Assembly (NCBI GenBank): GCA_903885635.1
Contig: CAISJE010000081.1
Location: forward strand, 1-51,579
Direction: 5' to 3'
Source: an uncultured bacterium
GTDB lineage: Bacteria; Cyanobacteriota; Vampirovibrionia; Gastranaerophilales; Gastranaerophilaceae
Length of the DNA stretch: 51,579 bases
Translations under genes and position numbers: made by a program
Shown here: positions 288 through 48,843 of the stretch, in pieces
Layout: the number at the start of each line of letters is the position of its first letter
Position numbering within the stretch: position 1 is the first letter of the stretch
The notes under the pieces: generated by a model
The model's database searches: none
Told to the model about the DNA's origin: nothing
The model's input: only the letters and a program-made list of their open reading frames with translations

Positions 288-1304
288 ATGTTAGCAGTTA
301 CAGGAATTAATTTTGCTCAAAAGACAAATCAAAAATCAATTAATAGCAACCAATCACAACAATATTCAATCAAAACTCACTCTCAACCCATGCGAGATAC
401 TGTGAGCTTTACATCATCTCTACTAAGGAATTTTGGCACCGTGGTTGAGGGAAAGCTATTTAGAGGAGGTTTTCCTAGATGTGTTAAGGAGCTTCAAGAG
501 CTTCAACAGAAAGGTATAAAAACCCTAATTTATCTAGCGGGAAATGACGAAGCTCCTCAATTAAAGGCATTGGTCGAAGGAGTGAAGATGAAATATATTC
601 CAAACGAACTTTCGACGCACTTCGGTGTTGAAGATATTTCAAGGATTAAAAAACTTTCACAGATAATCCCTGATTATTTAGAAGAAGGCGGGGTCTATCT
701 TTGTTGTAGTGCAGGGGAGTTACGCACAGGCAAGGCTGTATGGGGATACCAACACTTTGTAGAAAAACTACCTAAAGACAAAATTTTGGCACATGCTGCT
801 AATCATTCTAGCGAAAAGCATGTGGCGGAGTTGTTTGAAACAATAATTCCAGCAGATTTTGGTATTGTGCTTGATAGTGCAGATGTGAAATTATACAGAG
901 GATACAAACCTAATGAGCCACAACTTGAAACGCTTAAAGACAAAGGTATAAAATCTATAATTAATTTAGACGGTTATGATTATAAACCAGAAGAAAAACA
1001 ATTAGTTGAAGGACTCGGCATGGAATATACTTTCAAGCCATATTGGGCTAATTCGGACCAAGAAAAAATTGTAAAACTAAAAACACTTGCACCGGAAATC
1101 CAATCGATATTAAAAAAAGGTGGTGTATATATATCTAATAGCAAGCCATATGATATGGCGGATATTGTAGCCGGATATCAACACTTTATACAAAAACTGC
1201 CCGAGGAGGAAATTTTAAAATATGGGGATACATCCTATGGTTGTTTTAAATTTGGTGAGACCTTAGCGAATGTATTAAAGATTTTCAAATCAACAGAAGC
1301 CTAA
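288..1304 (+). CDS. Tandem dual-specificity-phosphatase-like protein, second domain degenerate
   Basis: 338 residues, with AAAGGG 7 nt before the ATG. After an Asn/Ser/Gln-rich N-terminus of about 40 residues come two homologous domains (about 47-190 and 193-338). Both share the pattern G.V..GKLFRGG / VKLYRGY, GIK.[LI]I.L and GGVY...GYQHF..KLP. The first keeps a cysteine phosphatase P-loop, Cys140-X5-Arg146 (CSAGELRTG), with Cys instead of the usual His before the nucleophile. The second has SNSKPYDMADI at the same place, so both Cys and Arg are lost. Family knowledge suggests a tyrosine/dual-specificity phosphatase fold; the substrate is unknown. No signal peptide or membrane segment is seen. 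It stands alone between a transposase tail and the ribosomal cluster. The N-terminal motif RDTVSFTS resembles one in the caspase-like protein at 47759. Confidence 0.6.
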   Translation: MLAVTGINFAQKTNQKSINSNQSQQYSIKTHSQPMRDTVSFTSSLLRNFGTVVEGKLFRGGFPRCVKELQELQQKGIKTLIYLAGNDEAPQLKALVEGVKMKYIPNELSTHFGVEDISRIKKLSQIIPDYLEEGGVYLCCSAGELRTGKAVWGYQHFVEKLPKDKILAHAANHSSEKHVAELFETIIPADFGIVLDSADVKLYRGYKPNEPQLETLKDKGIKSIINLDGYDYKPEEKQLVEGLGMEYTFKPYWANSDQEKIVKLKTLAPEIQSILKKGGVYISNSKPYDMADIVAGYQHFIQKLPEEEILKYGDTSYGCFKFGETLANVLKIFKSTEA

Positions 1305-2061: not shown

Positions 2062-2427
2062 ATGGCAAGATTAGCAGGGGTCGACTTACCCCGTAACAAA
2101 AGAATAATAATAGCATTGACCTACATTTACGGTATAGGTCCCAAAAGAAGTGAAAAAATTCTTGAAGCTACAAAAATCTCACCGGATTTAAGAACGGACG
2201 ACTTAACTGATGAAGATATTAAATTGTTAAGAGCCGAACTTTCAATTTATCACATCGAGGGTGATTTGAGACGTGAAGTTACAATGCACATCAAACGTCT
2301 TCAAGAAATAAACTCTTACAGAGGAATTCGTCACAAGCGTAAACTTCCTGTTCGCGGACAGAGAACAAAAACAAACGCTCGTACAAGACGAGGTAAAAAA
2401 ACGGGGCCTGTTTCTAAGAAAAAATAG
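2062..2427 (+). CDS. rpsM: 30S ribosomal protein S13
   Basis: 121 residues. [34 protein letters not shown] is the classic S13 start. The body carries the helix-two-turns-helix ([11 protein letters not shown]...) and the C-terminus is the basic [19 protein letters not shown] tail that contacts the P-site tRNA. AAGGAG precedes the ATG. It is the third gene of the translation cluster. Confidence 0.98.
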
Positions 2428-46093: not shown

Positions 46094-47649
46094 TAATGCC
46101 TAAAATGTCTTATCCCTGTTGTAATCATGGCAATTTTATATTTATCGGCTTCTGCTATAACGTCTTTGTCCTTAATACTTCCCCCAGGTTGGATTATTAG
46201 GGCAATTCTGCCTTGTGCGGCTGCTTGGATGTTGTCGATTGCAGGGAAAAACCCGTCAGAAGCGATTACAGCGTCTTTTGAGCCGTCACATGCGTAATCC
46301 AATGCCCATTCCATAGCACAAACCCTGTTGGTTTGACCTTGCCCGATTGCGAGTGTCTTAAAATCTTTTGCAATAACAATTGCGTTTGATTTGGCATGCT
46401 TTGCCACTTTCCACGCAAAAATCGCATCTTCAATCTGCTCGGCAGTCGGTTTTGCCTTTGTAACAACCTTAAATGTATCGCTATCAAGCTCTTTTTTGTC
46501 GGAATTTTGGATTAGAACGCCAAAAGGTGTTATTTTAATTTCTTCGGTTTGTATTTTTTTGTAATCTTCCAAGGTTGTGTTCAATTTAACAATCCGCAAA
46601 TTCTTTTTACCCTGCAAAATTTCAAGTGCATCTTCGTCAAAATCAGGTGCGATAACGACTTCGAGGAACACTGAATTTAAAAGTTCCGCTATTTTTTTTG
46701 TTACTGGTTGCGAAAAAGCAATTATTCCGCCGAAAGCACTTATCGGGTCGCAGTCAAAAGCCTTGTGGTAAGCTTCTAAAAGGGTTTTACCGAGTGCAAC
46801 TCCGCATGGTGCTGTGTGTTTTACGATTGCAACCGCAGGGACATCGTAAAATTCGCTCACAATATTAACCGCCGCCGTAATGTCTAAAATATTGTTGTAA
46901 GAAAACTCTTTGCCCCATAATACTTCATAATCGGCAACGTGATGCGACGATTCTCCCTCCCCCCTTGAGGGGTGAGGGTTGGGGTGGGGGGTGCTTAATT
47001 TGTATAATCCTGCCTCTTGGTGAGGGTTTTCGCCGTATCTTAAATCCTGAACTTTTTCAAACGAAAAATTCTTTTTTTCTGGATTTCCAAAAATTTCTCC
47101 AAGTTTTGAACCGATAACTTCGTCATAGTTTGAGGTTAATGCAAAAGCTTTGAGTGCGAACTCTTGGCGTGTAGACTCGTTTGCGTTAGTTGCTTTGGAG
47201 TAATCCGCTTTGTCGCAAATAACGGTTATATTTTTGTAATTTTTCGCCCCTGCTCTTAAAAGTGCAACCCCGCCGATATCAACGTTTTTAACGAGTTCGT
47301 CAATGTTGTCCGTTCTTTCTGCCACTTTTTCAAACGGATATAAATTCACCACAACCATGTCAAAACTTTTGATTTCCAATTTTTGAATTTCCTCGGCTTC
47401 TTTTAAATTTGACATATCAGCCAGAATCCCTGCAAAAATCGCAGGGTGCAGTGATTTAACTTTACCTGAAAGCATTTCGGGCGAATTGGTAATTTCAGAA
47501 ACTTCCGTTACTTCAATTCCGTTTTCTTTCAATAAATTATAAGTCCCGCCTGTTGAAACTATCTCAAAATTTTGGTTTATCACCAATGCCTGTGCAAACT
47601 CCACGATATTTTCTTTATCAAATACACTAATATATGCTCTTTTTTTCAT
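46093..47649 (-). CDS. purH: Bifunctional AICAR transformylase/IMP cyclohydrolase
   Basis: 518 residues. The cyclohydrolase domain starts KKRAYISVFDKENIVEFAQAL..FEIVSTGGT; the transformylase domain has LRYGENPHQEA, VKHTAPCGVALG, CDPISAFGGIIAF and the C-terminal GGSIKDKDVIAEADKYKIAMITTGIRHFRH. It does the last two purine steps to IMP. About 16 residues (STPHPNPHPSRGEGES) right after LRYGENPHQEAGLYKL come from a G/C-rich repeat inserted in frame. GGAG lies upstream. Confidence 0.95.
   Translation of the reverse strand: MKKRAYISVFDKENIVEFAQALVINQNFEIVSTGGTYNLLKENGIEVTEVSEITNSPEMLSGKVKSLHPAIFAGILADMSNLKEAEEIQKLEIKSFDMVVVNLYPFEKVAERTDNIDELVKNVDIGGVALLRAGAKNYKNITVICDKADYSKATNANESTRQEFALKAFALTSNYDEVIGSKLGEIFGNPEKKNFSFEKVQDLRYGENPHQEAGLYKLSTPHPNPHPSRGEGESSHHVADYEVLWGKEFSYNNILDITAAVNIVSEFYDVPAVAIVKHTAPCGVALGKTLLEAYHKAFDCDPISAFGGIIAFSQPVTKKIAELLNSVFLEVVIAPDFDEDALEILQGKKNLRIVKLNTTLEDYKKIQTEEIKITPFGVLIQNSDKKELDSDTFKVVTKAKPTAEQIEDAIFAWKVAKHAKSNAIVIAKDFKTLAIGQGQTNRVCAMEWALDYACDGSKDAVIASDGFFPAIDNIQAAAQGRIALIIQPGGSIKDKDVIAEADKYKIAMITTGIRHFRH
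46951..46996. repeat. G/C-rich REP-like repeat inside purH
   Basis: CCCCTTGAGGGG palindrome followed by TGAGGGTTGGGGTGGGGGG. Its in-frame translation PHPNPHPSRGEGE is the known mark of a widespread REP-like repeat. Its base composition is far from that of its surroundings. Confidence 0.7.
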
Positions 47650-47758
47650 TATTTATTTTCTCCTTTATTTCTAATGTAACAAAAAATTAAACTTCTGACA
47701 AATTTATTTTTTCAGGGGTTTTGTAATTTCTATACAAAATAATTCCACTGAGGTGAAA

Positions 47759-48727
47759 ATGCTCGTTCAAAACAGTTGTTATCTTAATAACCCCAAAATA
47801 AGTATTAATAAAAATTCTTCCCAGTTTATTTATAATAAATCTGGTGATGAGATTTCTTTTTGTGGTGCTAAGTCAAAGCTGAAATTTCTCGCAAAGACTT
47901 ATGTAGGTGTAAATATAGTGGCACTTGTGCATCTGTCTTTGTTGACGTTTGGAAATCCAAATCAAAATCAAGTTGAAAAGCGTAGTGGGTGGGATTCAAA
48001 TATAAAAGTCCTTGCTGCGACAGGTCAAAATACGTTAGCATTAAGTACGGGTAGTGATACTTATTCTCTAAAATTGGTTGAAGCACTATTAAAACCCGAT
48101 ACTAAAACAATAGAGGCTGCAAATCATTCATTAATAAAAAGTGGTTACAGCGTCAATCAACCATTCGGCTGGAGAACACTACTAACGGGTCCCATAGATC
48201 TTTATATGAATTCAAAAGTTTTCAATCCTTTAGAAACATATGGTGTTAATCTGGGTATTTTTAATAAACAGGAGAAGAATAAAGAAAGATTTATTCTAAC
48301 TCTTTATGATAAGAGGGAAGAAAGATTTTTAAACTCTACGGATAAATTTTCTACAATGATGAAAAAAATATATGGGCTTCCTTCGGGAAATATTATAAAC
48401 ATACCGGTAGATTCATTAAAAAATATAGAACAAGGGCTAGATTCTTTTTTAAGTCAAATTAATCAGTTAAAAAGCAAAGGAAATGTTGAGCTATTAATCA
48501 TCTATAAGGCTCATGGTGCTGCAGAATCCTTAAACAAAGGAGCAGAAAAAGTTGAAGGTGCGATGGAGGGAATAATGCAGACCAATCAAGAAATCCAGGA
48601 AAAACAAGTTAAAGAATTATTTCATAAAAAACTTCAAGGGGTAAAAACTTTATTTTTATTGGATACATGTCATGCAGGGGCTTGGATTAGTGAGAATGCA
48701 AAACAAACTTTGAAATATTTGGCTTGA
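47759..48727 (+). CDS. Caspase-like (peptidase C14 fold) protein, short C-terminus
   Basis: 322 residues from ATG 47759, with GAGG 5 nt upstream (an in-frame GTG at 47753 overlaps that site). An Asn/Ser-rich N-terminus with DEISFCG is followed by a possible membrane helix (AKTYVGVNIVALVHLSLLTFG, about 46-66). The C-terminal part fits the caspase p20 core: strand LTLYDKREERFL, MMKKIYGLPSGNIINIP, IYKAHGAAES with catalytic His252, and LFLLDTCHAGAW with catalytic Cys304. Only 18 residues follow the Cys, so the p10-like substrate part is missing. It may be truncated, minimal or completed by a partner. Role unknown; metacaspase-like proteins often act in stress or cell death. Confidence 0.7.
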   Translation: MLVQNSCYLNNPKISINKNSSQFIYNKSGDEISFCGAKSKLKFLAKTYVGVNIVALVHLSLLTFGNPNQNQVEKRSGWDSNIKVLAATGQNTLALSTGSDTYSLKLVEALLKPDTKTIEAANHSLIKSGYSVNQPFGWRTLLTGPIDLYMNSKVFNPLETYGVNLGIFNKQEKNKERFILTLYDKREERFLNSTDKFSTMMKKIYGLPSGNIINIPVDSLKNIEQGLDSFLSQINQLKSKGNVELLIIYKAHGAAESLNKGAEKVEGAMEGIMQTNQEIQEKQVKELFHKKLQGVKTLFLLDTCHAGAWISENAKQTLKYLA

Positions 48728-48843
48728 ATATATTAAATTAGCATAATAAAAAAACATTTGAAAAATTACTTGTTTGTGTAACACTTATAGTAAGCTAAAC
48801 TAAAGTAGCATTAAGTGTATTAGAAATATAAAGGAAACGAAAA

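Follow-up and report, generated by a model that had tools for sequence, protein, structure and literature searches.

The window analyzed here (the whole 51,579-nt stretch of DNA) is contig C81 of a draft bacterial genome (2.28 Mb, 233 contigs, 99.99% complete), presumably, to judge by gene content and relatives, that of a gut-type gastranaerophilalean (Melainabacteria group), and one of its genes raises the question of whether a caspase-like protein that stops 18 residues after its catalytic Cys is a remnant, one half of an enzyme, or a complete protein. The original prediction left three possibilities: a minimal membrane-tethered caspase, a truncated gene, or half of a split enzyme. Our reading, which we hold to be rather probable, is that this gene specifies an intact caspase-like cysteine protease (P0001), exported and anchored in the membrane, with its two halves predicted to be circularly permuted (p10-linker-p20). 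The descriptive parts of the original prediction were borne out: the reading frame from ATG 47759 to TGA 48725-48727 (+), the distance from the Cys to the stop, the Asn/Ser-rich N-terminus, the possible membrane helix, and the position beside fusA behind a separate ribosome-binding site (Table 1).

Table 1. Positions of features at the P0001 locus and at related loci; positions without a prefix are those of the window.
Feature	Position	Strand	Basis or remark
13-mer TTCAGGGGTTTTG	47711..47723	+	Exact copy also upstream of paralog P0002
Ribosome-binding site GAGGTG	47749..47754	+	4 nt before ATG 47759; sequence
P0001, predicted membrane-attached caspase-like protein, 322 aa	47759..48727	+	Proposed order: leader, TM helix, p10, linker, p20
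Asn/Ser-rich leader, residues 1-45, with GDEISFCGAKSK motif, then basic stretch before TM helix	47759..47893	+	Sequence
Hydrophobic helix, residues 47-65, putative signal anchor or signal peptide	47897..47953	+	Kyte-Doolittle
Conserved block GWxSNxKVxAATGQ...IExAxxxLIKxGY, residues 76-132, proposed N-terminal p10	47984..48154	+	hhalign, AF2
Variable linker, residues 133-165	48155..48253	+	About 28 residues missing in P0002; AF2 confidence <50
p20-like catalytic half, residues 166-322, b1-a1-b2-a2-b3(His252)-a3-b4(Cys304)-C-terminal helix	48254..48724	+	
His252 codon (KAHG; in YKAHGAAES)	48512..48514	+	Conserved in P0002 as SGHG
Cys304 codon (LLDTCHAG; in LLDTCHAGAW)	48668..48670	+	Conserved in P0002 as NDTCGSG
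Exchangeable purH-fusA gap	47650-48730		Caspase gene here, metallopeptidase-like gene in sister species
P0002 gene, predicted caspase-like lipoprotein	G000:C205 (L128:1593-2510, L002:1498-2412)		Outside window
N/S-rich leaders with [IV]xFxG-K-like motif	47759-47880; 288-400; L129:3151-3320; L131:1803-1880 and 2293-2350		

Catalytic half and the natural end of the gene

Profile comparisons show that the C-terminal half of P0001 is a caspase p20, as judged from sequence. In hhalign, a two-sequence profile of this half matched 46 caspases of the same class with a probability of 95% and E 1.8e-8 (single profile-profile comparison). The best sequence match in the whole PDB, Arabidopsis metacaspase-4 (E 0.069), extended across the entire p20 with both catalytic positions in register, and the His252-Cys304 dyad named in the original prediction is thereby upheld. 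The profile-profile E-value and the in-register metacaspase-4 match together exclude chance for the caspase part. As a single sequence, P0001 scored 13.8 bits against Pfam C14 (PF00656), below the gathering cut-off of 21.4, so that P0001 is caspase-like by profile and dyad and is not a member by Pfam's rule. The clan CD legumains (Pfam C13) likewise have His-Gly and Cys after consecutive strands, and the p20 half fits C13 less well than C14 (13.3 versus 16.0 bits).

The AF2 models, which were built from two sequences only and have low confidence (pLDDT 52 and 57), contain the full p20 strand order in residues 166-322 as well as a strand-helix-helix-strand block further upstream. Foldseek searches with these models returned no match under E 0.001. 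With the full model, the caspase-11 p20 chain ranked first in the PDB, and caspase-4, -6, and -1 were among the top ten, all with weak E-values; the cropped model gave mixed matches that included RecA-like and other folds. A Clandestinovirus viral metacaspase was matched over 222 columns and was left out of the evidence, its domain order not having been compared.

The same genome encodes a single paralog, P0002, of 305 aa; its gene is on contig C205 and is flanked by tilS and hpt. The hpt gene of this contig is 99% identical to that of a sister species, implying that the contig comes from the same organism or a very close one. P0001 and P0002 are 31-34% identical overall and 36% identical in the p20 half, and P0002 keeps the dyad (YSGHG for His and NDTCGSG for Cys). 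Moreover, both proteins stop at the same position, after the same type of C-terminal helical stretch and with the same last residue (LLNFIA-stop and LKYLA-stop). A truncated or frameshifted gene, in which p10 was lost by decay or sequencing error, would account for the stop so soon after the Cys, and the genome is a draft in 233 contigs. The like ends of two genes that lie at separate loci and on separate contigs argue strongly against truncation, frameshift, and missequencing, and inspection of the 116 nt between the P0001 stop and fusA revealed nothing able to continue the protein and no p10-like sequence. We regard this explanation as highly improbable and reject it; P0001 is judged to be intact, with a natural end just after the catalytic Cys.

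The original prediction had also asked for homologues that continue beyond the stop, with full length in all of them counting against it; the sole homologue found, P0002, stops at the same place. No further member of the P0001/P0002 family was detected in 383 genomes of the family and 383 of the order, in two GTDB pattern scans, or in viral contigs, phages, and plasmids; neither NCBIfam nor PADLOC holds a family for the pair, and PHROGs gave weak matches only, of unknown function. Among the searched collections, the family is thus found in this genome only. A 30-residue match in the family and order genomes (E 0.009) was taken as chance, as was a short match in G016 (L003, E 0.009) with a stop inside, and two partial C14 matches (L083 and L088) were not of the P0001 type.

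An N-terminal block resembling p10

Ordinary caspases carry p10 after p20, as strand b5, two helices, and strand b6, and this part contributes to the substrate cleft. Orthocaspases and p20-only metacaspase-like proteases have a p20 and no p10 anywhere; P0001 has no p10 after p20 and a probable p10 before it. The candidate is the block at residues 76-132, which is the best-conserved part of the pair (41% identity between P0001 and P0002). In the AF2 models, it consists of strand 82-91, helices 102-110 and 118-127, and strand 130-132, which is the element order of a caspase p10. Alignment by eye also placed KVLAATGQNTLALSTGSDTYSLKLVEALLKPDTKTIEAANHSLIKSG of P0001 against LIAFATGPGQTALDGQEGNNSPFTRALVDNIAKPGVEIQQAMTSVRAQV in the p10 of a bacterial caspase (L138).

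A plain HMM search of the block with p10 HMMs was mostly not significant and at best was equalled by about 1% of shuffles, and profile-profile tests were run for that reason. Sets of 18, 46, 13, and 57 p10 sequences were tried, and all results are given; the statistics rest on the two sequences P0001 and P0002. The hhalign score of the pair's block was reached by 10 of 400 column shuffles against 18 p10s, by 6 of 1000 against 46 p10s, and by 10 of 1000 against a separate, mainly alphaproteobacterial set. Against the merged 57 p10s, the block scored 20.6 (single-comparison E 0.0012), a value that 3 of 1500 column shuffles attained and that none of 1000 windows of other real proteins, used as decoys, attained. 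Four of five other segments of the same two proteins scored about 9-12, and the fifth (40-131), which overlaps the block, scored 17.9. When compared with whole caspases, the block pair found its best match in the p10 region, in the same register, with full-length scores that were reached by 4-18% of shuffles.

Genuine p10s of related caspases scored 28-44 when left out of the profile, compared to 20.6 for the block, which leaves two readings: a p10 that has diverged very far, or a strong coincidence. The P0002 block alone was not significant with most profiles and passed with one profile set only (2% of decoys). When the N-terminal block of P0001 was moved behind p20, the Pfam C14 alignment extended from profile position 135 to 173 and the score, 16.0 bits before, rose to 17.2, still below the cut-off; P0002 reordered in this manner had no Pfam C14 match at all. 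Searches of the block against PDB sequences produced chance matches only, to designed helical proteins and eS7. The statistics support the assignment of block 76-132 as a p10 and stop short of proof, and we rate the chance that the halves of P0001 are permuted as somewhat better than even.

The modest p10 similarity and the general failure of P0002 on its own are what would be expected of a p20-only caspase-like protein with an unrelated accessory domain as its N-terminal block, working without b5/b6 or with the help of a partner, and bacteria commonly have p20-only caspase homologues when the usual HMM criteria are applied (PMC6426788). This explanation, which we consider unlikely, sits poorly with the topology of the block, its register against p10, and the shuffle and decoy tests, and also with the conservation of the block, which equals that of the catalytic half. 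Furthermore, the bacterial caspases examined carry p10-like strands after the Cys, where P0001 has nothing.

Animal caspases become two chains by intersubunit cleavage, so a split enzyme of which P0001 is one half, the p10 coming from a gene in trans, has some precedent. Such cleavage has been described for caspase-2 (PMC7760212). Contrary to this proposal, neither locus contains a partner gene, each paralog standing alone between housekeeping genes, and both proteins have the same N-terminal block in cis. A split enzyme, also put forward by the original prediction, therefore seems very doubtful, as the p10 half appears to be present in the same chain, N-terminal to p20. In the "minimal membrane-tethered caspase", the tethering is supported; "minimal" is, by the same token, probably wrong, since the protein looks complete in permuted order.

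If the permuted reading is correct, the chain would run from the N-terminal leader and membrane helix through a p10-like small subunit (residues about 76-132) and a flexible linker to p20 (166-322), whose natural end would follow the b4-Cys loop and a single helix. The block would then pack as b5/b6 beside b4, completing the six-stranded sheet and the substrate cleft. No cut between the subunits would be needed, because the free C-terminus of p20 would already be in place, as in engineered permuted caspases. The expected enzyme would be a single-chain, envelope-bound cysteine protease with a natural linker of about 35 residues. Its control could not lie in intersubunit cleavage and might instead lie in expression, calcium, or cleavage of the linker. 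A permuted or partial caspase fold that lacks protease activity and serves for binding would fit the atypical His-Gly environment of P0001 (KAHG instead of SGHG); we think such a pseudo-enzyme improbable, given that both paralogs have kept the His and Cys with the flanking G and D-T-C motifs despite 34% identity.

Relation to known caspases and metacaspases

Type III metacaspases are set apart from all other metacaspases by their subunit order. The p10-p20 order defines this type, which has been reported only from algae of secondary endosymbiosis (PMC6426788, PMC8455989), and a 2019 survey of UniProt detected no case in 11,208 prokaryotic caspase homologues from bacteria or archaea (PMC6426788). 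Because that survey accepted only strong p20 matches (E < 1e-4; PMC6426788), divergent cases like P0001 would have been missed. In the type III enzymes GtMC2 and PtMCA-IIIc, as proposed for P0001, p10 is N-terminal to p20, the chain ends after p20, and a single polypeptide carries a His-Cys dyad with D-x-C-H. Unlike them, P0001 is bacterial and predicted to be membrane-anchored (its paralog lipidated), and it is far too divergent for direct similarity. The p10 signature of diatom type III enzymes (Dx[QE]TSAD / GGAx[ST] / QxPQL; PMC8455989) is absent from P0001, whose N-terminal block reads AATGQNTLALSTGSDTYS...VNQPFGW. Since P0001 is bacterial and lacks this signature, we do not classify it among the type III metacaspases and ascribe to it the same arrangement only. 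Algal GtMC2 is not cut in its full-length form, and its N-terminal domain has to be removed in a calcium-dependent step (PMC5756287).

P0001 has a p20 with the dyad and strand order, and p10-like motifs, in common with bacterial caspase-family proteins and orthocaspases (PF00656), those of its own class among them. By contrast, the class members listed above the Pfam cut-off all cover the model in p20-p10 order, and P0001 has its proposed p10 first and nothing after p20. In the engineered permuted caspases (cpCasp2 and rearranged caspase-3 and -6), the small subunit precedes the large one in one chain, and the catalytic Cys loop is followed by a new free C-terminus; these are laboratory constructs of human enzymes, whereas P0001 would carry the permutation naturally. 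Caspase-2 permuted in this way forms one chain with constitutive activity, and caspase-3 and -6 had been permuted earlier (PMC7760212).

Whether the pair represents a natural, envelope-anchored, circularly permuted bacterial caspase with two paralogs in one genome, and so the first example in a prokaryote of an arrangement like that of type III, independently arisen and possibly active without intersubunit processing, is in our estimate an evenly balanced question. If it does, permutation arose more than once, and P0001 would offer a small single-chain enzyme in which to ask whether permutation takes the place of proteolytic activation. The case is also a warning that an upstream p10 may go unnoticed in proteins whose annotation reads truncated or p20-only.

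Predicted membrane attachment and genomic setting

Residues 47-65 form the strongest hydrophobic stretch in P0001 (mean Kyte-Doolittle 1.58), and in P0002 the corresponding position is taken by a PROSITE-type lipobox (CIGMLPLTIGC). Both proteins therefore look exported and attached to the membrane, with the conserved part outside. The catalytic domain would lie outside the cytoplasm, held by the helix in P0001 or by lipid in P0002, and P0001 might cut proteins at the cell surface. Because P0001 is predicted to face outwards, a role in defense seems less likely for it than for an intracellular TIR-caspase pair of the same genome. In that Thoeris-like defense pair (G000:C163, L018:1088-2454), a ThsB-type TIR gene (Pfam ThsB_TIR, 44 bits) is directly followed by a full-length caspase (C14, 75 bits).

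The leader that precedes the helix in P0001 (residues 1-45) has low AF2 confidence and is missing from P0002. N/S-rich leaders that end in a [IV]xFxG-K-like motif are common to several unrelated proteins (ISFCGAKSK, VSFTSS, VIPFLGKKD, PQFKGEE, and IIPFRAAKK), and in an initial count, which is not clean, the motif occurred in the N-terminus of 6 of 77 ORFs compared to 1 of 77 further in. Such leaders are possibly lineage-specific targeting leaders. One example is a 338-aa, DSP/tyrosine-phosphatase-like protein encoded at 288-1304 (+) of the window, which seemingly contains two repeats, the first with CCSAGELRTG and matches to Pfam Tc-R-P and Y_phosphatase2; its N-terminal leader (RDTVSFTSS) resembles that of the caspase gene.

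P0001 reads toward fusA, 116 nt downstream, and purH diverges from it, 109 nt upstream. In the sister species, purH and fusA are also neighbors, and the fusA region is 94% identical at the DNA level; on the two sides of the gap, homology begins again precisely at 47649, the start of purH, and at 48731. The gap there instead contains an unrelated metallopeptidase-like gene (586 aa, HELGH) on the opposite strand (G001:C39, L129:3151-4911). Similarly, the tilS-hpt gap of the sister species is occupied by genes for a HELGH-containing membrane protein and a nucleotidyltransferase-like product. Since both gaps hold unrelated genes in the sister species, the two caspase genes give the impression of recently acquired cargo at two sites where genes are exchanged. 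Behind P0002 lie 104 bp that duplicate the 3' end of tilS almost perfectly.

The 13-mer TTCAGGGGTTTTG has only two exact copies in the 2.28-Mb genome, one 5' of each paralog. With one mismatch allowed, 12 sites were found compared to 7 for the reversed control, and no clear regulon emerges from these counts; the element is likely promoter-proximal or a leftover of a common 5' flank.

Two kinds of repeat were also seen. Within purH (minus strand, window about 46930-47000), an in-frame insert reading STPHPNPHPSRGEGESSHHV is like a small dispersed palindromic repeat, and the purH of the sister species reads differently at this site. The other repeat (L039:2154-2308 and L002:1-260) is about 155 bp long, forms a hairpin with arms of GGTATGGGTACGAGC, and looks MITE-like; in the sister species it lies between the promoter regions of fusA, and in this genome it is close to hpt.
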